A stretch of DNA of 37,761 nucleotides from Candidatus Aenigmatarchaeota archaeon (GTDB lineage: Archaea; Aenigmatarchaeota; Aenigmatarchaeia; CG10238-14): contig JAHLMN010000003.1 in NCBI GenBank assembly GCA_018920345.1, positions 1-37,761 on the forward strand. Direction: 5' to 3'. Below, one piece after another: positions 17,044-37,761 of this stretch. Position 1 is the stretch's first letter, and every line of letters begins with the position of its first letter. The position numbers and the translations under genes are program-made. A model generated the notes under the pieces. It searched no databases and was not told the DNA's origin. It saw only the letters and a program-made list of their open reading frames with translations.

Positions 17044-18852
17044 TTAGCTTATGATAGTTTTTATATTTTTTCCTGAAACCAACGCCTTTAGAACTTCTTT
17101 ACCTATTTCAGACGATTTATTAATTTTTACTTCATTTTTCTTTCCTACTGTAGCAGAAATAATAAAATCATTATCTATGTAGATAGATATTTGCTTTCCT
17201 CTAACAGATTTTTCAAAAGTAAAAATTATAGAATTTCCTGATTCCAAAATTTTATGAGCAACTTCTTTGCCAATACTAGGTATTTTTGGCTCAACATCTA
17301 TATTTATACCAAGCTTCTTTTCTATCTCAGTTATATTTTTTCCTTCTCTGCCAATTAATCTAGCTATGCAGTTATTATCAACTCTAACTGTAACTCTATT
17401 ATTAGAAGAAAAAATAATTTCTGCTTCAGGATCATATTTTTTTATCTCTTGATATATTGCTTTCTTAGCAAGCTCTTCTACAGGTGATTTGCTTTCAGCT
17501 TCTATAGGTATAACAACATTTTCTTCTCCATAAGAGTATATTTCATAAACAAGCTTACCAGACTCAAAATCTCTTACTTCTACGACAGGTCTTGCTAGAT
17601 CAGCTTCTGTCATACCAGTAGGCACTTTAACTGTTAGCTTTAATTCATAAACATTTTTTATTTCTCCATCTTTCAAAAATATTACAGTATCTATCACATG
17701 AGGAATCATACCAAGCTCTATTTTTCCTATAAATCTTTGTATGGCATCTATAGCTTCAGATGCATGAACAACACCTATCATTCCTATACCAGATAAACGC
17801 ATATCTGCGAAAACTCTGAAATGCTTTTCCAACCTAACCTCATCAAATATAGTATAATCAGGCCTTACAAGTAAAAGAATATCTGCAGTCTTGGCAAAAT
17901 CACCATTTAGAGGACCATATTGTGTCACTTGATCAGGTACCTGTAAATCTTTCGGTGATTCTAAAGTCTTTATTATAACATTTTTTTCTTTTATTAAGAA
18001 TTCAGCTATAGATGTTGCTAATGTGCTTTTTCCACTACCAGGAGGACCTGCTATTAAAATTCCTTCAGCCTTATTTTTTAATCTTTCCACAAGTTTATTT
18101 GATAGCTTATAATCCTCTAGTCTAAGTTTTATTACAGGTCTAACAATAGTTATCTCAAATCCATCAGAAAAAGGAGGACGAGCAACAGCAATTCTATAAT
18201 TACCTAATTGAATAACAATAGCTCCACCATTTTCTGCTTCTATAAAAGCATCATCTCTGCTTCTAGCAATCTCAATTATCTCGTAAATCATTTTTTGAAC
18301 TTGCTCTCTTGTTAAAACATCGCCAACTTTATCTAGACTTATTCTTCCAGGTTTACCTCTTTTTGCCATAACAGGAACATTTTCCTTTATATGTAAACTC
18401 ATAGTATCTTCAGTAAAATATTTTTCGAAACTCAATTCTTTTACTTGAACATCAGGTGGTATATATTCTGTTTTTACACCTTCAGCTTCACCTGTTAATG
18501 CTTGTACATAATCAGCAGTTAATAAAACAGCATTTTCATCTTTAGCAACATCTCTTATTATTGCGTCTAACCTACCACCTTTTGCCAATTTTATATCCTC
18601 TAAACTAGGTCTTTCTCCAGAAAATCGAAGGTTTATGTCCATTTTTTCACATAATGTTCTTATTTTTTTCAACTCATCCAATCCTAAAAATCCTGGCTCT
18701 CTACCTTTGGATGCCTGTGCTTGTAACTCATCTAAAACAGCTCTAGGTATAATTATCTCCTTTAATCCCTCTAACTCATTATTTTCAAGCATCTGAGATA
18801 TTCTTCCGTCTACTATAATGCTAGTATCACAAACAATCTTACTTACCTTCAT
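17044..18852 (-). CDS. PIN domain - PilT-type ATPase - KH domain protein
   Basis: N-terminal PIN (IVCDTSIIVDGRISQML...RLDAIIRDVAKDENAVLLTADYVQA); Walker A AGPPGSGKSTLA; C-terminal KH-like CIARLIGREGKNITEIEKKLGINIDVEP. Confidence 0.93.
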   Translation of the reverse strand: MKVSKIVCDTSIIVDGRISQMLENNELEGLKEIIIPRAVLDELQAQASKGREPGFLGLDELKKIRTLCEKMDINLRFSGERPSLEDIKLAKGGRLDAIIRDVAKDENAVLLTADYVQALTGEAEGVKTEYIPPDVQVKELSFEKYFTEDTMSLHIKENVPVMAKRGKPGRISLDKVGDVLTREQVQKMIYEIIEIARSRDDAFIEAENGGAIVIQLGNYRIAVARPPFSDGFEITIVRPVIKLRLEDYKLSNKLVERLKNKAEGILIAGPPGSGKSTLATSIAEFLIKEKNVIIKTLESPKDLQVPDQVTQYGPLNGDFAKTADILLLVRPDYTIFDEVRLEKHFRVFADMRLSGIGMIGVVHASEAIDAIQRFIGKIELGMIPHVIDTVIFLKDGEIKNVYELKLTVKVPTGMTEADLARPVVEVRDFESGKLVYEIYSYGEENVVIPIEAESKSPVEELAKKAIYQEIKKYDPEAEIIFSSNNRVTVRVDNNCIARLIGREGKNITEIEKKLGINIDVEPKIPSIGKEVAHKILESGNSIIFTFEKSVRGKQISIYIDNDFIISATVGKKNEVKINKSSEIGKEVLKALVSGKNIKTIIS

Positions 18853-24131: not shown

Positions 24132-24680
24132 TTATTTACCAGGCGTCGCAATCCAAATTAAAGGTATTATCATAACCAATACCAAACCAAGTGTCAATAA
24201 AATATCAGAAGGTATTACCGCAAGCATATCAGGCGTTAAAAATAAACTAACCAAACCACTTGTAATAAAAACAACTATTCCAACAATAATAGCAATTAAA
24301 AATATTGTTGTTGGAGTAGATCTGCCTTTCCAAATTTCCCATAATTTTTCAGATATATTTTCAGGAAATATCATACCAGCTATCATTAATCCTACCATTA
24401 ATACCAGCATCACAACCATACCTTGCATAAAGAAAGCTGATAAATGAGCTTGTATGTCAACACCATTTATCACAGGGAAAGCCCAAACCATAAAAGCAGC
24501 TGTTAGTGCAATAACACCATTCAAAGCAACATTCCTGTCAGAGTCCGCTCCAAATATTTTCGATTTTCTCAACAAACCATAAAATATAGCAGAAGTAAGC
24601 ATAAATGGGAATAGAAAATTAAATGCTCCAATTTCATTCAATTTTAATATAACATTTCTAAACACGTCAGGCATAAACAA
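24132..24680 (-). CDS. Polytopic membrane protein, paralogue A (YGLLRKSKIFG family)
   Basis: AFNFLFPFMLTSAIFYGLLRKSKIFGADSDRNVALNGVIALTAAFMVWAFPV; same layout and motif as the adjacent upstream gene. Confidence 0.75.
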   Translation of the reverse strand: MFMPDVFRNVILKLNEIGAFNFLFPFMLTSAIFYGLLRKSKIFGADSDRNVALNGVIALTAAFMVWAFPVINGVDIQAHLSAFFMQGMVVMLVLMVGLMIAGMIFPENISEKLWEIWKGRSTPTTIFLIAIIVGIVVFITSGLVSLFLTPDMLAVIPSDILLTLGLVLVMIIPLIWIATPGK

Positions 24681-25208
24681 TCACTTTCTCGGTGGCATTA
24701 CAGATGTTACAGCTATTGCTAAACCCAAAAACAATAACAATACAAACAAAATCACACCACCACTTCCACCTTTGAATATAGTTCCCTGTAAATTTAAAAT
24801 ATTACCCATTCCACTAACAAAAAATATTATTATTCCTATTACAATAAAAATCCAAATCATTGTATTACTTCCTTTAAAAGCATAATTTAAAGCATCAACA
24901 AAATCTGGATATGCAATGCTAGCTCCTAAAAAAGCAAATAGAAAAACTAAAGCAATAATAAAAAATTGAGCAGTAAATATAGACATAGGTTTACCTATTG
25001 ACATTTCAGGCAAAGTTGCAGCATAACCCCAAATAAACAAAGAAAACACAAAAGTCAACAAAGCATAAATTGGCTCTGAATCACCAAATATTTTTGATTT
25101 TCTTAGTAAACCATACATTAAGGCCCAGAAAACAATCATAGGAAGAAGAAAATCATAAATTCCTGTTTCTGCCATTCTTTCTACGAGAACTTTAAACGGA
25201 TTAACCAT
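24681..25208 (-). CDS. Polytopic membrane protein, paralogue B (YGLLRKSKIFG family)
   Basis: IYDFLLPMIVFWALMYGLLRKSKIFGDSEPIYALLTFVFSLFIWGYAATLP; abuts paralogue A with no gap. Confidence 0.75.
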   Translation of the reverse strand: MVNPFKVLVERMAETGIYDFLLPMIVFWALMYGLLRKSKIFGDSEPIYALLTFVFSLFIWGYAATLPEMSIGKPMSIFTAQFFIIALVFLFAFLGASIAYPDFVDALNYAFKGSNTMIWIFIVIGIIIFFVSGMGNILNLQGTIFKGGSGGVILFVLLLFLGLAIAVTSVMPPRK

Positions 25209-25241
25209 AATTAAATATTAAAGTTTTTTCAATAAATACTT

Positions 25242-25958
25242 TTAATTTTTTCTTTTCATTTCATGAACCAAATCAGTTAATGCTCTAACGCTTTCTATTA
25301 ATGATGGTAAAGCCTCTTTAAAAGTTTTTTCTAAACTTGACATTTTTGCATTAAGTTCTTCAACACTATCTCTCAAAGAATCAATTTTTGATATTGTTTC
25401 AGATTCCCTTTCCTTTCCACCTTTTGCGACAATTGAAAGTTGATTATGTAAATCTAAAATCTTTCTTTCTAATTCATTATACTTGTTTCTGAATTCAACA
25501 AGCCTCTCATCAAGATCAGCCATTTTTTCATGTACTATAGATTCTATTACTTCTTCACTTATGTATTCTTGTGGTTGATAATATTCTTGTTGTTGTATTG
25601 GTTGTTGTGGCTGAAAAGATTGTGCTGGCTGAATAGGTTGAGAAGGATTTTGTTGAAAACTTTGGAAGAAAGGTTGTAAATCACCAGATTGATAATAGCT
25701 ATCTTCTTGCTGTTGATTCAATGTATTTAGCGTAGGCATAGAATTTTCTTCGCCTGTTACACCAATTTTAAGATTTTGGGTTAATGCTCTATCAATCTCT
25801 TCAGAGCTGAAACCATCTTTTCTTAATATATCAATTATTTCTGGCTCAGAGAAACCTTTATTGCTCAAATCCTTTACTTTGTCTGTTGGTATAAATCCTT
25901 TACCTATTAAAGGAGGTTTTTCTGGTTGTTTTTTTGCTCCACCTAAAAACTTGATCAA
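25242..25958 (-). CDS. Coiled-coil protein with UBA-like helical N-terminus and Gln/Pro-rich linker
   Basis: VKDLSNKGFSEPEIIDILRKDGFSSEEIDRAL; Q/P-rich SFQQNPSQPIQPAQSFQPQQPIQQQEYYQPQ; C-terminal heptad-rich coiled coil. Confidence 0.7.
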   Translation of the reverse strand: MIKFLGGAKKQPEKPPLIGKGFIPTDKVKDLSNKGFSEPEIIDILRKDGFSSEEIDRALTQNLKIGVTGEENSMPTLNTLNQQQEDSYYQSGDLQPFFQSFQQNPSQPIQPAQSFQPQQPIQQQEYYQPQEYISEEVIESIVHEKMADLDERLVEFRNKYNELERKILDLHNQLSIVAKGGKERESETISKIDSLRDSVEELNAKMSSLEKTFKEALPSLIESVRALTDLVHEMKRKN

Positions 25959-26003
25959 GTTTAAACACCCTTATTATTTTAATAGAATTTTTTTAACTTA
26001 AAA

Positions 26004-26384
26004 TTATTCTTTTTTCTTTTCCAAAATTCTTTCAAGTTCATCCCTTGTTACAAACCTTGACTTTATAGGATTATATAAATCAAGCAAACTTTCCAATTCC
26101 TTAAGCTCTGTCTTTTTTGCTGTCTTCTCCAAATTTTGTTCAAATTTTAACATATTTCCTCTCATTTTTTTTATTTCTAAAGAAAGCTCTCTAACGTCAG
26201 CACTGAGCTGATCAAAAGTTATTTTTAATGTCTTCATTTCATCTATTATCCTTTCTTCTATACCTTTTATTCTAGAATCAATAACATCCAATCTTTGCTC
26301 TATTATCCTAATTCTTCTTGTATTATCATTTATCCTTCTAACAGTTTCTGTATCAGCACTAGGTTGGACTTTTTCAAAAGCCAT
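26004..26384 (-). CDS. Coiled-coil protein, archaellum FlaC-like
   Basis: Long heptad-rich helix, then LLDLYNPIKSRFVTRDELERILEKKKE; divergent from the secretion ATPase with a 50-bp gap. Confidence 0.6.
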   Translation of the reverse strand: MAFEKVQPSADTETVRRINDNTRRIRIIEQRLDVIDSRIKGIEERIIDEMKTLKITFDQLSADVRELSLEIKKMRGNMLKFEQNLEKTAKKTELKELESLLDLYNPIKSRFVTRDELERILEKKKE

Positions 26385-30688: not shown

Positions 30689-30844
30689 ATGAAAGGAATA
30701 TCAAGATCCATAATAATATCTTTGATTTTTTTAATAGTAGTTATGCTATTTTTAGTTTTAGCATTCACAATATTTAACGAAAAAGTGAAGGAAATAGAAC
30801 CTGTGCTCAATAATATATTTAAAAAAGCTCTCAAGGTGAATTAA
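30689..30844 (+). CDS. Small pilin-like single-TM protein, 51 aa (not in ORF track)
   Basis: MKGISRSIIISLIFLIVVMLFLVLAFTIFNEKVKEIEPVLNNIFKKALKVN*; K-G then hydrophobic stretch (class III signal-like); last base of stop overlaps next ATG. Confidence 0.75.
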   Translation: MKGISRSIIISLIFLIVVMLFLVLAFTIFNEKVKEIEPVLNNIFKKALKVN

Positions 30845-31029
30845 TGAAAAAAGGACTAAGCGGTTTTATTTTGGCAATATTGATAACATTAATTGTAGCT
30901 TTAATAGCTTCTGTTATTTTTTGGATATTTCTAAGAAACACAACAGAAGGAGCAAAAACTTTTAGTGAGCAAATATATACTCAAATATGTGAATCATTAG
31001 GAATTTTGAAAGGTTTAATGGGATGTTAA
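30844..31029 (+). CDS. Small pilin-like single-TM protein, 61 aa
   Basis: MKKGLSGFILAILITLIVALIASVIFWIF...; KKG then hydrophobic helix. Confidence 0.75.
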   Translation: MKKGLSGFILAILITLIVALIASVIFWIFLRNTTEGAKTFSEQIYTQICESLGILKGLMGC

Positions 31030-31030
31030 A

Positions 31031-31156
31031 ATGGAAATGAAATTCATTATTGCAATTATATTGGGTATTATTTTACTAGGAATTATTTTATATATTATAT
31101 CATTACAATCAGGTATATTAGATAATTTAATAGAATGGCTAAATGGTTTGGTTTAA
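31031..31156 (+). CDS. Small single-TM protein, 41 aa (not in ORF track)
   Basis: MEMKFIIAIILGIILLGIILYIISLQSGILDNLIEWLNGLV*; sits exactly between two genes of the same strand. Confidence 0.65.
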   Translation: MEMKFIIAIILGIILLGIILYIISLQSGILDNLIEWLNGLV

Positions 31157-32551
31157 ATGTCTGAAACAACTACAAATTTAGTAATATTTTTTATTTTGTC
31201 AATTGTAATACTTTTATTTCTTTTAACATCTTATAACAAATTAACTAAATGGTTGTGTTTTAATAATACATTTTTATGTGTCAAATCCAAGCTTGAAATG
31301 GCTGTAGAATGCTCTTATTATAGATGTAAAGAAGGTTGTAACAGTGATGTAATAGATAAATTAAGAAAAGAAGATTTTAATTGTAGAGATTTTTGCTTAA
31401 AAGAATGGCAAGATGAAGAAGGAAAAATTTGTAATGATAATTCATTTTATCATCCTGTTATTGTGAAGAATATAAAAAAATATGATTACACTGAAAGTGA
31501 TTTTGGTTCTAAATGTGTTTTGAAAATAGATTCATACAAAAATACAAATTTACAGGATATTATTAATTTTGCAAAAGCTTTAACAATCGATGAAGACAAA
31601 TTTTTTGTTCATATTGAAAAATCTCTTTTGAATGATGACAAAACAAATACCGAAAGTACATGTTTAAATCAAATTCTACCTGTATCATTTAGTAGAATAA
31701 AAAAATTTAGTTTTGAAAAAGATAATTACGAATATTTTATTTTTACAAAATATACTCAATTGCCTAATATGGTTGGAAAATACTCTTATGCAACAAATGT
31801 TTTTATTCTAGAAAATATTTGTGAAGCTTGCACAGATAATGATTGTTGCAGTAAACTAATAGATTATGGAATAGATTGTTTCTTTGCTAACGGAGAATGC
31901 TTTTATAATAAAGGTGATTGTGATAGTTGTGGCAAAAATGAAGATTGTTGTAAAAAATTTTCGAAAGATGGAAAAGACTGTATTTTTAGTGGATTAAAAT
32001 GTTATAAAAAAGATGAATTAGATGAAATATGTAAAGATAAAACTCAATGTAGCGAATCCCATAATGATGTAGAGTGCTGCAATTATTTATCTATAACTAA
32101 AAAGGCAAATTGTTTTTATAATTCAAATGATGGAAGTTGTTTAGAAGAAAAAGAAATAACATGTGATGATAATAAATTTAATTTTGGCATTCACGATATA
32201 TGCTTTTATTCATCGGAATACTTTTGCTATCTTGAAAACAAAGACCTTATAGCGTCAGGTTGTTATAATTCTCATTGTTATAAGATTTGTGGCTCTTTAG
32301 TTGATATAAAATCATACAAAGAAGAAGGAAATACATTTCAATCATATTTTTCAGATTATAAAGACTGTGTATTCGCAATAAATGTATTTAATGAAAAATA
32401 CAACTCAAATATTGATTATAAAGTATGTTGCGAAAAAGTTAAGAGTTGTAGTGATTATAAATCCCGTAATTTATGTGAACAAAATGATTGTAGTGTAGGC
32501 GATTGTCATTGGAATGATACAAATGGAGGGTGTGAAGATTGGAGTCAGTAA
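31157..32551 (+). CDS. N-terminally anchored Cys-rich extracellular protein with repeated disulfide-type modules
   Basis: N-terminal TM TNLVIFFILSIVILLFLLTS; repeats CEACTDNDCCSKLIDYGIDCFFANGECFY / CDSCGKNEDCCKKFSKDGKDCIFSGLKCYK / CSESHNDVECCNYLSITKKANCFYNSNDGSCLE; terminal CSVGDCHWNDTNGGCEDW. Confidence 0.8.
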   Translation: MSETTTNLVIFFILSIVILLFLLTSYNKLTKWLCFNNTFLCVKSKLEMAVECSYYRCKEGCNSDVIDKLRKEDFNCRDFCLKEWQDEEGKICNDNSFYHPVIVKNIKKYDYTESDFGSKCVLKIDSYKNTNLQDIINFAKALTIDEDKFFVHIEKSLLNDDKTNTESTCLNQILPVSFSRIKKFSFEKDNYEYFIFTKYTQLPNMVGKYSYATNVFILENICEACTDNDCCSKLIDYGIDCFFANGECFYNKGDCDSCGKNEDCCKKFSKDGKDCIFSGLKCYKKDELDEICKDKTQCSESHNDVECCNYLSITKKANCFYNSNDGSCLEEKEITCDDNKFNFGIHDICFYSSEYFCYLENKDLIASGCYNSHCYKICGSLVDIKSYKEEGNTFQSYFSDYKDCVFAINVFNEKYNSNIDYKVCCEKVKSCSDYKSRNLCEQNDCSVGDCHWNDTNGGCEDWSQ

Positions 32552-32715
32552 AAATTATTATTGAAATAATTTTATTAGTGGTATTTTTATCCATTTTAAT
32601 ATTTTTCATAATTAATTTATCTAGAACATCAAATGAAAAATCTATGACAGATAGATTAAATAAATTATTGAACAAGTCAATTTTAATAATATTAAAAAAA
32701 TCTATATTTATTTAA
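32539..32715 (+). CDS. Small single-TM protein, 58 aa (TTG start, not in ORF track)
   Basis: TTG at 32539 overlapping the upstream stop; MESVKIIIEIILLVVFLSILIFFIINLSRTSNEKSMTDRLNKLLNKSILIILKKSIFI*. Confidence 0.5.
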   Translation: MESVKIIIEIILLVVFLSILIFFIINLSRTSNEKSMTDRLNKLLNKSILIILKKSIFI

Positions 32716-32732
32716 AAACAAATAATTAAATT

Positions 32733-33236
32733 ATGAGAGGTTCAATTAGTTTAGTAATAACTATAATATTTACTGTCATGATTATTATTTCTATAATAAT
32801 GTTTTTTCCATCTATAAAAAACACTTTTACATATAACTGTGTCAATATAGTAACTCAAAAGCTCGATTTAATAAAGATTAGATCGTGTGAAATGACTGAC
32901 ATTGATTTAGAATATATAGAAAAAATAGATTTATCTTGTTTAGAAAAAATTACATACGTAGAAAATCAAAACAGCCCACAACTATTATTAAAGGTTAGAG
33001 ATAGAGACAAAGATTATGTATATAAAACAACATGTGAAGACGGACAGTATGGAAATGTAGAATTTGATTTTTCTTCAGCTGGAAACAAAAATGAACTCAA
33101 AATAGATAGAGAAAAATACAATTTTTTAATTTCGCCTTTTAAAATAAAACTAGTTTTTTGTGAAGGAAATGAAAATTGCTATAATATGAATGAGGAACAA
33201 TGTTCAAAAAATACAGAATGTAGGGTCATAGATTAG
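32733..33236 (+). CDS. Pilin-like protein with N-terminal class III-type signal and Cys-containing C-terminus
   Basis: MRGSISLVITIIFTVMIIISIIMFF; C-terminus FCEGNENCYNMNEEQCSKNTECRVID. Confidence 0.75.
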   Translation: MRGSISLVITIIFTVMIIISIIMFFPSIKNTFTYNCVNIVTQKLDLIKIRSCEMTDIDLEYIEKIDLSCLEKITYVENQNSPQLLLKVRDRDKDYVYKTTCEDGQYGNVEFDFSSAGNKNELKIDREKYNFLISPFKIKLVFCEGNENCYNMNEEQCSKNTECRVID

Positions 33237-33237
33237 T

Positions 33238-33681
33238 ATGAGCGAGGAAAACATTTCAGAGCCAATAAATTTTTACATAATTGTTTTTGGTTTAATTGTC
33301 ATTTCCATAGTAATACTAATACCTATAATAAATTCAATAAATGTTTTTATCTATTTCTTTTCAAAATCAAATTCAGAATATGTTAGCGAAATGATAACAG
33401 AATTAGTTACTGTTTCTTCTGGTGTGCCTGGAGATGTAGAAATAAAATTTGTCAAGCCATCAGAAAATAAATATAATATAATGTTTAATCAAAAAATGGT
33501 TTATGTAGAAATGTATGATTACAAAAAACCATTAGGTATTTCCGATGATTTAATTGAAGAAATGTCAAAAAAAAGCTATTATTCATCTGCAGTAAACTTT
33601 ACTTCAAACAATATATTAGATTTCAATTTAATAAAAATTAGAAAGAGCAAAGAAATAAATATAGAATCTATAGGAAGTTGA
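33238..33681 (+). CDS. N-terminal TM anchored extracellular protein (pilus cluster)
   Basis: EPINFYIIVFGLIVISIVILIPIINSINVF TM; FLAG-like-free soluble C-terminus; 1-bp gap from the upstream stop. Confidence 0.65.
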   Translation: MSEENISEPINFYIIVFGLIVISIVILIPIINSINVFIYFFSKSNSEYVSEMITELVTVSSGVPGDVEIKFVKPSENKYNIMFNQKMVYVEMYDYKKPLGISDDLIEEMSKKSYYSSAVNFTSNNILDFNLIKIRKSKEINIESIGS

Positions 33682-33684
33682 ATT

Positions 33685-34566
33685 ATGAGTAAAGGAACAT
33701 CTTTGGCAATAGGTATAGGAGAATTTATATCACTTCTAGTTTTGATAGGAATAATTCTTTTAATAATAAGTTTTGTTTTCAGAGATGTTTTAGTTTTAAA
33801 GATAGAAAAAGAAAACTATATAGAAAAAGGAAAAACAATAAATCTAGCAAATTCTATAATAACTGAATCTAACATAGTTTCTTTAGACGAATTAGGTCAA
33901 AAAAGAAAAGGAATAATAAATATAACAGAATTAGAAAAAGTAAGTAATATTGAAAAACCTTTAAAATGTTGTGAATATGTTGATTATGATTATTATGCTA
34001 ATATAAAAATTAATTCAAAAAATCAAAATTATTTAATAGGATACAAGTTTAATGATTTAAAAGAATTATTTCAGTTGGAAAAAATTTGTATTAAAAATAC
34101 CGAATCTAAAACTTTAGAAAAAATAAAAATTCCTTTAATTGTTCAGGATCAAGATAAAATGTATGATGCGTCAATGGAAATATCTTTAGCAAAAACTCCT
34201 ATAAGTTATATAGCAACAGAATTAAATGTTGCTTGTATAAAAGATAATTATCAAAATACTATACCTATTTATGGTTTTAATCAATACCATTTTTGGATAG
34301 AAAAAAAAGACAATACTTATACTGTTTGTACTAGGACATATAAAGATGTTTTTATGTGTAAAGATGTTTTTTGTGAAAAAAATATTAAAGTGAAAAAAAT
34401 AGAAGGTGATTGCAGAAATGATGATAAAAAATGTTTAAAAGGATGTAGTTATTTTTTTGATAACGATTGCAAATTGGAATCTTGTGGTGTAGCAAAAATA
34501 ATATCAAAGAGCAATGAGGTAGTAATATGTTTTGCAAATACAGAAAAGGAATTGGAACAATGCTAG
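33685..34566 (+). CDS. Pilin-like N-terminal TM protein with Cys-rich C-terminus
   Basis: MSKGTSLAIGIGEFISLLVLIGIILLIISFVF; C-terminal GDCRNDDKKCLKGCSYFFDNDCKLESCG. Confidence 0.75.
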   Translation: MSKGTSLAIGIGEFISLLVLIGIILLIISFVFRDVLVLKIEKENYIEKGKTINLANSIITESNIVSLDELGQKRKGIINITELEKVSNIEKPLKCCEYVDYDYYANIKINSKNQNYLIGYKFNDLKELFQLEKICIKNTESKTLEKIKIPLIVQDQDKMYDASMEISLAKTPISYIATELNVACIKDNYQNTIPIYGFNQYHFWIEKKDNTYTVCTRTYKDVFMCKDVFCEKNIKVKKIEGDCRNDDKKCLKGCSYFFDNDCKLESCGVAKIISKSNEVVICFANTEKELEQC

Positions 34567-35078
34567 GTATAGCAATATTTTTAGTAGTTTTGGCTATTTG
34601 CTTAGCTTTATTTATAAAATTTTTTAGATATACAATAGTAATATCTGAGCGAGAAGATATAAAAAAAGATAGAGATTCTTTATTGTTTCTTTCCATAATA
34701 AACAAAGAATATACCTATGGAAATTTTGTTGTTGCTTTGTCGACTGATCCAGAAAAAACAATTGATGAAATAAGTCAATATATAAAAAAATTCTCATCTA
34801 TAGAATCTGTTCAAACAAATAACCCTCCTCTTAGCAGACCTCAACAAACAATTCAACCTTATTATACAAACCCTCCTCTTAGCAACACACAAATGAGCAT
34901 ATATTATTATTATAATTTTAATGGAAAAGAGGCCACAATATATTATATATCGAATGGGCTTTGTTTTAATGAGCCAATGAAATGTAAAAAATACACATAT
35001 ATAAACAGAATTCCAATACCAAAAATATACGATGGCAAAGAATTTGTAAGCGAGGGTATATTTATAAGTTTTGCGTGA
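34527..35078 (+). CDS. Pilin-like N-terminal TM protein
   Basis: MFCKYRKGIGTMLGIAIFLVVLAICLALFIKF, KG then hydrophobic helix; 40-bp overlap with the upstream gene; contains a short duplicated NPPLS peptide. Confidence 0.7.
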   Translation: MFCKYRKGIGTMLGIAIFLVVLAICLALFIKFFRYTIVISEREDIKKDRDSLLFLSIINKEYTYGNFVVALSTDPEKTIDEISQYIKKFSSIESVQTNNPPLSRPQQTIQPYYTNPPLSNTQMSIYYYYNFNGKEATIYYISNGLCFNEPMKCKKYTYINRIPIPKIYDGKEFVSEGIFISFA

Positions 35079-35082
35079 TCAA

Positions 35083-36045
35083 ATGAAAGGAATTAGTTTT
35101 ATTGTACCATTAATAATATTGCTTTTGTTAGTTTCTGTTTTATCGGCTTTCTTTGCATTTCAAAGTAATATTATAATAAAAAAAAGAGAATTCCAAAATA
35201 AAATATTGATTTTAGGTGACAGAATAGAATCTATTGGAAATATAATAAGACAATCTTCAGATTTGGCGACAATTCAAGCAATATACGATGCTGGCAGTTT
35301 CAATTTAGCTATAGATAATGATATAAAGTACAATGATAATGAAAATTTGCCATATTGGGATAATGAAATAAATGAATATATGAAAAAATCTATTTTAAAA
35401 ATATCTGAAATTTATTTTTATAATTATGAAAAAGAATTTGAAAAATATTTCAATGATTTGAACAATAAAAACAAAAATAATTATTGGAAAGTTTATTGGG
35501 AAAAAGACATAAAGATAGAAAAATTTAATGAAGATGAAATATCAATAAATTTCGGAACATTTAATATAACATATTCAGATGATCAGATAAAAATATCAAA
35601 AAAATATCCTATATTGTCTCATGTTAAAACTAATTTTGTCAAAATGTTAAATTACGCAAATGAAAATTACCATAAATTTAAAGATGAAAATTTAGATGCT
35701 TCAATGAAATCAGAAGATTTTACTGTAAAAATAGAGCCTAGATCAGATTATGTAAAAGTTTCTATAAAAGAAATTTCAAAAAGAAAATTATATATAATTG
35801 AAAAAAAGACCCAGAATTACGACAGTATAACTTTGAATTTCGTTATAGATAAATCAAAATGTTTTTGCCCAACAATGTATTGTACAGGCGGCTGCTGGTA
35901 TGGTTCGAGTGGCCCTTTTGAATGTCCAGGATCATGCAGTCCTAAAGGTGAAAATGTAAAAAATTTAAAAAACATAAAAAATTGCGGCGAGATTTATATA
36001 TTATCTAACATAGATCATTCTTGTGAAATTTTTCAAACTAATTGA
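35083..36045 (+). CDS. Pilin-like N-terminal TM protein with Cys-rich C-terminus
   Basis: MKGISFIVPLIILLLLVSVLSAFFAF from internal ATG 35083; C-terminal CFCPTMYCTGGCWYGSSGPFECPGSC. Confidence 0.78.
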   Translation: MKGISFIVPLIILLLLVSVLSAFFAFQSNIIIKKREFQNKILILGDRIESIGNIIRQSSDLATIQAIYDAGSFNLAIDNDIKYNDNENLPYWDNEINEYMKKSILKISEIYFYNYEKEFEKYFNDLNNKNKNNYWKVYWEKDIKIEKFNEDEISINFGTFNITYSDDQIKISKKYPILSHVKTNFVKMLNYANENYHKFKDENLDASMKSEDFTVKIEPRSDYVKVSIKEISKRKLYIIEKKTQNYDSITLNFVIDKSKCFCPTMYCTGGCWYGSSGPFECPGSCSPKGENVKNLKNIKNCGEIYILSNIDHSCEIFQTN

Positions 36046-36058
36046 ATTGTTTTCATAA

Positions 36059-37761
36059 TTATGTCAGTGGATCATCACAATTTCCACTATTTTGATCTAC
36101 TCTGTCATATTCTTTATATCTTTTACAAGTTTCTACAGTAACTTCACAAGGACCACAATCTTTAAGGAATAAACAAGGGTTAATAGAATTTTGAACATAA
36201 TTTTGGGATTCTCTTATTTCGAAATGTAAATGGGGGCCAGTACTTGTTCCACTACAACCATCAGCACCACCACTATATCCTATTATATCACCTGCATTAA
36301 CAGGATCACCAACTTTAACGTTTATTCCATCACATTTAAGATGACCGTATAAAGAATAATATTTATTTCCATCTATAGTATGCTCGATTACTACACGATT
36401 TCCAAAACCATCATTAAAATATCCTGCTCTAACAACAATACCATCTTGAATAGCATGAACAGGTGTACCTTCAACAACACCTAAATCAATACCAGAATGA
36501 AAATATCTATCTGTTCTCCAACCAAAACATGAACTAAACCTTCCACTTCCTTCAAGAGGATGATATGCAACTAATTCACTTTGCTCTAAAATTTCATTAC
36601 TTCTACAACATACAGCATCTACTTGATTGCATGTACCAGAAATTTCTGAATATCCATCAGGGCAAGAATATTTAACACATATATCAGGATATGAACAAAC
36701 TCTAGTTGATTCTGTTGATGTTTCTTCTTGACTAGAATACTTTGCACAATTTTTGGCTCTTAAGTATGTGTTTTCTTTAAAATTATAAAGATATAATATG
36801 TCAGTTGTTAAAAAAGATTCTTTTTCAGTTTCATCATATTTATTTATATTTATTTTTGCTTTACATTCTATGTTATAAGAATTTTTTTCTGAAATTACTA
36901 AATTTTGATTTATTTTTAATTTTATACATTTTGCTGCATCAGGTGAATTACAATCACGAGAAAAATCTATTTTTTTACGATAACTATCTTCACAACTAAT
37001 TATATCGACATAATCTCTTTGTACCAAAAGTTTAATATCCTTAATATTTACAAAGCCTTTTTCATTATTCTTAATATTTATTTGAATTGAAAAATCATCA
37101 GCATACTCTTGAGTTACAATATGAGGCTGAGAGTAAATAAAAACATCTAAAGGCCCTGGTGAAGATATACTTTGAAAAGAAAGGCTACTAATATAACTCT
37201 CATATCTTTTATCTAGTTCATTCATTCTATAGTTAGGTAATATTAAAAAACTAGATTTTCCTCTAGATATTTGTTCTGTATTTAAAATTACATAAAAATA
37301 AATAAAACCTCTACATTTTGATGGTAAAGCTTCAAAATCTATTGTTTGAGGATATATTCTATTATCAGGTGGTATAATTATTTCTTTATTTAATGTAGCA
37401 ATTTTTGTAAAAGTATTTTCTGTTAATAAATATTCATCATTTTCTAATTCAGAAGAAGAAGCTATAACATCAATTTTATTTATTTTTATATCATATATAT
37501 AACTTCCTAGATACTTTTTATAATATTCAGAAGGTATATTTTGATTTCTTAAGAAAAATTTGAATTTATATCCTTCACCTGCTATAGGCATAGCATTACT
37601 TCCATATGTGGGATCTTCAAATTTAATTTCAATATTTTTGTAAAGACCTGCTTTTTTAGAATCTTTGGGTAGACATTCATCAAAATTATATTCAATTAAC
37701 GAGTGAGATGGGTAAAGTCCGCTGGACAGGACATCCCTTCGTTGATGCAGGCTTGGCAGCA
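36059..37761 (-). CDS. Large secreted-type protein with M23 (LytM/Gly-Gly endopeptidase) metallopeptidase domain; N-terminus beyond right edge (partial)
   Basis: CFGWRTDRYFHSGIDLGVVEGTPVHAIQDGIVVRAGYFNDGFGNRVVIEHTIDGNKYYSLYGHLKCDGINVKVGDPVNAGDIIGYSGGADGCSGTSTGPHLHFEIRE with HxxxD and HxH. The frame stays open upstream of the track's Met at 37591 to the window edge. Confidence 0.92.
   Translation of the reverse strand, partial: LPSLHQRRDVLSSGLYPSHSLIEYNFDECLPKDSKKAGLYKNIEIKFEDPTYGSNAMPIAGEGYKFKFFLRNQNIPSEYYKKYLGSYIYDIKINKIDVIASSSELENDEYLLTENTFTKIATLNKEIIIPPDNRIYPQTIDFEALPSKCRGFIYFYVILNTEQISRGKSSFLILPNYRMNELDKRYESYISSLSFQSISSPGPLDVFIYSQPHIVTQEYADDFSIQINIKNNEKGFVNIKDIKLLVQRDYVDIISCEDSYRKKIDFSRDCNSPDAAKCIKLKINQNLVISEKNSYNIECKAKININKYDETEKESFLTTDILYLYNFKENTYLRAKNCAKYSSQEETSTESTRVCSYPDICVKYSCPDGYSEISGTCNQVDAVCCRSNEILEQSELVAYHPLEGSGRFSSCFGWRTDRYFHSGIDLGVVEGTPVHAIQDGIVVRAGYFNDGFGNRVVIEHTIDGNKYYSLYGHLKCDGINVKVGDPVNAGDIIGYSGGADGCSGTSTGPHLHFEIRESQNYVQNSINPCLFLKDCGPCEVTVETCKRYKEYDRVDQNSGNCDDPLT

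Follow-up and report, generated by a model that had tools for sequence, protein, structure and literature searches.

Genes at the locus

The window analysed here, a stretch of 37,761 nt, comprises all of contig C13 of an Aenigmatarchaeota-type (DPANN) genome of 0.816 Mb (95.5% complete), whose source is a tiny, probably host-dependent archaeon. Between positions 30689 and 36045 it contains, on the + strand, a single tightly packed operon of ten genes (p1 to p10; Table 1), and the locus is regarded as a type IV pilus (T4P) operon because genes for a secretion ATPase and for a double FlaJ/TadC platform protein lie directly upstream. The six N-termini in which the original prediction had seen a prepilin signal are real, all of them belonging to open frames of this operon; four further genes with an N-terminal transmembrane (TM) segment, p3, p4, p5 and p7, were missing from its list and are devoid of K/R-G. 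Pfam and NCBIfam searches with the small array proteins returned no meaningful matches and no pilin Pfam family. When the ATPase served as query, the nearest named relatives were MAGs of Candidatus Aenigmatarchaeota, those from Pacearchaeota, Nanohaloarchaea and Nanoarchaeota being more distant, and in most of the relative loci that were fetched the platform gene is followed by a run of short-leader membrane genes.

Table 1. Coordinates and features of the pilus locus and of a related stand-alone gene (G000, this genome; other G numbers, relatives; L numbers, loci)
Feature	Position	Strand	Remarks
T4P assembly ATPase, T2SSE/FlaI type, 746 aa	26435..28675	+	PF00437, E 1.3e-14; PDB: GspE2 2OAP, E 5e-28, and FlaI, E 2e-16
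Platform protein, double T2SSF, FlaJ/TadC-like, 671 aa	28672..30687	+	PF00482 in two stretches; homolog in 56/58 relatives
p1, MKG-IS class III signal, small pilin candidate, 51 aa	30689..30844	+	K-G invariant, 3 orthologs
p2, MKKG-LS class III signal, small pilin candidate, 61 aa	30844..31029	+	K-G invariant, 6 orthologs
p3, TM protein without K/R-G, 41 aa, MEMKF start	31031..31156	+	G001 and G003 orthologs likewise without
p4, N-terminal TM, 464 aa, Cys-rich (42 Cys), MSETTTN, without K-G	31157..32551	+	MKG in G001-G003 orthologs
p5, TM protein without K/R-G, 58 aa, TTG start, ESVKII	32539..32715	+	
p6, MRG-SIS class III signal, minor pilin candidate	32733..33236	+	MKG in G002 and G003 orthologs
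p7, N-terminal TM without K/R-G, MSEENIS	33238..33681	+	K-G present in distant orthologs of other genera
p8, MSKG-TS class III signal, minor pilin candidate, 293 aa	33685..34566	+	G002/G003 orthologs MRKG/MKKG, 37% identity
p9, MFCKYRKG-IG class III signal, minor pilin candidate	34527..35078	+	K-G invariant, 4 orthologs
p10, MKG-IS class III signal, last gene	35083..36045	+	Family alignment, hmmsearch; family bears peptidoglycan hydrolase domains in relatives
Convergent protein ending in Peptidase_M23, 5' end cut by contig end	36059..37759	-	PF01551, E 1.9e-28; HSGID, HLHF
MKGEAENTIVRIVIALI candidate major pilin	L070 11112-11360, G000:C11		Stand-alone in this genome

Relative to its orthologs in G001-G003, p4 has lost the K-G. 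Divergently from the ATPase, a pair of paralogous membrane proteins and a pair of coiled-coil proteins are encoded at 24132-26384; similarly placed counterparts were detected beside the ATPase in G003 and in other Aenigmatarchaeota and, by layout, at the Pacearchaeota and Nanohaloarchaea loci, and these genes may belong to the pilus system. A second T2SSE-like match (17044-18852, 602 aa) is closer in character to the archaeal PIN-ATPase-KH family than to a pilus ATPase. At the contig end, a GC-rich segment (37705-37761), the translation of which is unlike that of the orthologous proteins, is a possible assembly artefact.

Enrichment and conservation of the K/R-G motif

The motif was scored when K/R-G occurred in the first 14 residues together with a hydrophobic 15-mer that begins within four residues, a definition that differs from that of FlaFind; the strict FlaFind motif would presumably accept three of the six N-termini, namely the MKGIS pair and MKKGLS. 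Five of the six array genes were flagged by the script; the one at 30689 was hidden behind an antisense ORF that overlaps it and was counted by eye. K/R-G directly precedes the N-terminal hydrophobic helix in 6 of the 10 genes downstream of FlaJ. The background consisted of 174 ORFs from the rest of the window and from sampled stretches of the same genome (ca. 140 kb in total, T4P loci excluded) and included 35 N-terminally hydrophobic ORFs, none of which has K/R-G directly before the segment. Across 38 loci, mostly from relatives, the motif occurs in 145 of the 291 N-terminally hydrophobic ORFs that follow FlaJ on the same strand within 9 kb; among those located elsewhere, 7 of 74 have it (Fisher p 2.4e-11, the true p being less extreme because the loci share ancestry). 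In ortholog alignments of p1, p2, p9 and p10 the Lys-Gly pair is invariant, with a mean column conservation of only 0.54-0.66.

The gene product of p10 was modelled with AlphaFold2 (pLDDT 72), yielding a helix of 69 residues (4-72) followed by an alpha/beta domain. The model is compatible with a pilin, and a Foldseek comparison with the PDB gave no significant fold match.

Prepilin peptidase, candidate major pilin and further pilus loci

A search of the genome for a peptidase of the EppA/PibD/FlaK kind, as proposed along with the original prediction, recovered a single A24 peptidase, which is FlaK-like (283 aa; L001 1018-1869), and no EppA-type domain, PF06847 having no match in this genome while control genomes do match. 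The prepilin peptidase whose absence was to count against the prediction is thus encoded. Its catalytic Asp motifs, D and GGGD, align with those of M. maripaludis FlaK (3S0X), and it scores 40 bits with the NCBIfam FlaK model, for which the cut-off is 330. Matches to A24 were obtained in 52 of 58 relatives, and in L094, L100, L109 and L111 (Pacearchaeota, Nanoarchaeota and an uncultured archaeon) the A24 gene is found directly behind the pilin cluster.

A Cys-containing pilin of 82-95 aa (MKGEAENTIVRIVIALI...) is the candidate for the major pilin. Its gene is located within the operon in G002 and G003 and stands alone here, and at other loci related genes number as many as four per locus. At the start of contig C2 (L040 1171-5286) there is a second gene for a FlaJ/TadC platform protein, with genes for three K-G proteins behind it and no ATPase. 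In G002, G003 and G007 one contig carries both FlaJ sets, the second ca. 10 kb downstream of the first, which makes it probable that C13 and C2 are adjacent; the direct DNA overlap between the window end and C2 that would be expected from synteny was not found. Three more sets of ATPase and T2SSF genes, with K-G genes nearby, are present in the genome.

Peptidoglycan hydrolases in or beside pilus operons

The array is adjoined by a convergent gene encoding an M23 peptidase domain, which retains the zinc-binding HxxxD and HxH motifs and which, judged on these residues, looks intact. In the window the hydrolase sits on a separate membrane-anchored protein and not on a pilin, the array proteins themselves having no hydrolase domains. 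The homolog of the M23 protein in the congener G003 has an SLT transglycosylase domain at its end in place of M23. Homology between the M23 companion and the convergent genes of more distant relatives is no more than marginal (E about 1e-3).

Elsewhere among the relatives, such domains are fused to class-III-type subunits of the T4P clusters, often to the p10 ortholog. The p10 ortholog bears SLT and Amidase_2 in G009 and G011, SLT and a C39-like peptidase in G012, and Amidase_2 in G017, in which K-S replaces K-G. Other proteins of class III type carry M23 in G056 (K-G), G046 (RKG) and G039 (K-A), SLT in G052, SLT with M23 in G005 (RKA), and SLT with Amidase_2 in G092 (RKG-LASLE...). In a Nanoarchaeota MAG (L109), SLT and Amidase_2 are found on two neighbouring subunits, the Pacearchaeota counterparts of which (L094) are without both. 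The AlphaFold2 model of a 759 aa SLT and Amidase_2 protein has a pLDDT of 41 and is unusable beyond about residue 180. A GH5 cellulase-type domain, another enzyme on a pilin-like subunit, was observed on a K-G protein of a T4P cluster in G020 (L048 1691-3853), and a second M23 domain of the present genome (L072, G000:C14, 37421-37585) is cut by a contig end.

By coordinates, 12 of 36 distinct peptidoglycan-hydrolase ORFs are located at most 12 kb from a FlaJ gene (binomial p ~3e-8), a value that is indicative because the expectation, with ca. 4.5% of the genome within 12 kb of FlaJ, is our own estimate and because the species are related. In a phylum-wide sample of SLT proteins, 16 of 29 ORFs (17 when one K-A is counted) either bear the motif or adjoin genes that do. 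The hydrolases are absent or located elsewhere in many relatives. Nor are the Amidase_2 proteins of the phylum all borne on pilins, as had been considered, since several of them are exported by Tat or are giant proteins.

A probable type IV pilus operon

These data indicate that the array very probably constitutes the pilin/pseudopilin half of an archaeal T4P operon, made up of class III precursors. The original prediction of a class III (prepilin) layout is upheld, the N-termini in question being located behind an ATPase and a double FlaJ, conserved amid divergence and encoded in a genome with a FlaK-like peptidase, and cleavage is predicted. Its remark that six such candidates in one locus are a lot does not stand, since archaeal T4P are normally similar: clade 1 loci as a rule carry five minor pilins or more (PMC4858521), and the relatives studied here are comparable. 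M. maripaludis is likewise described as having several minor pilins, along with additional genes of pilin-like type (PMC3875500). The original prediction also left the ATPase and FlaJ genes upstream of the array and the M23 gene downstream of it unlinked to the array.

It is very improbable that the array proteins are ordinary single-pass membrane anchors in which K/R-G would be an unprocessed positive-inside flank. The four genes of the same operon that have similar helices without K/R-G would fit such anchors, but the motif is missing from all background ORFs of this type, diverged orthologs all keep the Gly in addition to a basic residue, and the genome provides the T4P machinery together with a prepilin peptidase. 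Equally improbable is that the locus encodes an archaellum, the filament used for swimming, or is what remains of one after degeneration. FlaI is the best NCBIfam match of the ATPase, and the FlaI/FlaJ-like genes known in Aenigmarchaeota have been annotated as archaellum proteins (PMC8407114); yet the ATPase reaches only 124 bits with the FlaI equivalog model (cut-off 550), the platform protein is a double-length T2SSF, and the array proteins, which are many and dissimilar, match no archaellin family.

For the T4P operon thus favoured, the ATPase and the FlaJ/TadC platform would assemble the filament from K/R-G precursors. The one FlaK/PibD-like peptidase, whose gene is found in another part of the genome, would remove their short basic leader by cleaving behind Gly, and the hydrophobic helices could then pack into the filament. 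Candidates for the bulk subunits are the proteins of 51-61 aa and the conserved pilin of 82-95 aa, and the larger Cys-rich p6, p8, p9 and p10 would be minor pilins. Together with other large Cys-rich subunits, p10 may form a tip or base complex, with p10 itself probably near the tip.

A pilus that may act on bacterial walls

The occurrence of wall-cutting domains on subunits in relatives suggests that the pilus is used on bacteria, and a role in acting on bacterial walls, at which we arrive from domain content and gene linkage, is possible and put forward tentatively. In armed lineages the filament would present peptidoglycan hydrolases to the bacterial wall, the pilus contacting bacteria and opening the wall locally. 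With similar reserve it is proposed that in many Aenigmatarchaeota and some Nanoarchaeota the minor, probably tip, subunits of T4P are hydrolases with interchangeable catalytic domains, forming a wall-opening pilus for bacterial hosts or prey, and that the operon of the window represents the unfused form with M23 as a neighbouring companion.

Alternatively, the T4P operon may be real and the nearby hydrolase domains either coincidental cargo or active in a house-keeping role or one towards a host archaeon, unrelated to bacteria. We regard this as unlikely, even with the patchy distribution of the domains between species, their absence from the array proteins of the window and the Tat-exported or giant hydrolases of the phylum that are unconnected with pili, all of which agree with it. 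Against it, linkage to FlaJ is well above expectation, if in counts that are not phylogenetically independent, one and the same slot is repeatedly filled by different hydrolase folds, and the catalytic motifs look intact in the sequences. Archaea are not known to have peptidoglycan, which also counts against it.

No host is known for most DPANN archaea, and the cultured ones known so far live on archaea. Pilus operons with domains that cut bacterial walls would, if the proposal is true, suggest that Aenigmatarchaeota have bacteria as their partners or prey, and would identify the contact machine. Scattered reports of DPANN peptidoglycan hydrolases would be joined into one testable mechanism, and the operon logic offers a way to recognise pilins in genomes where Pfam families catch none. 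In the open-access literature, no report of pilin-hydrolase fusions was found and no paper joining DPANN peptidoglycan hydrolases with FlaI/FlaJ-like pilus genes.

Comparison with known systems

Like the Epd pili of Methanococcus maripaludis (clade 1 of Makarova et al. 2016; PMC4858521), the present system has one secretion ATPase, a TadC/FlaJ-type platform and an A24 peptidase. As in clade 1 T4P, small major pilins can be stand-alone and the minor pilins number five or more; clade 1 has two platform proteins, and here a second one is found in a neighbouring locus. Unlike clade 1 (Epd/EppA), it has no EppA domain and no detectable pilin sequence families, and peptidoglycan hydrolase domains occur in or beside the operon. 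The peptidase resembles the FlaK/PibD preflagellin peptidase (3S0X) in its A24 family and aligned Asp motifs but falls far under the NCBIfam FlaK cut-off.

In Saccharibacteria, the type IV pili of ultrasmall cells are used on a bacterial host (PMC12206443), with bacterial machinery, so that the analogy is one of role only. Earlier papers describe peptidoglycan hydrolases of DPANN and other archaea and relate them to attack on bacteria (PMC8204110, PMC9723730, PMC12352652), and those described here are like them in that SLT/GH23 and M23 domains are found in archaea that make no peptidoglycan. In contrast to those reports, which draw no connection between the hydrolases and pili, the enzymes found here are subunits or neighbours of T4P operons.
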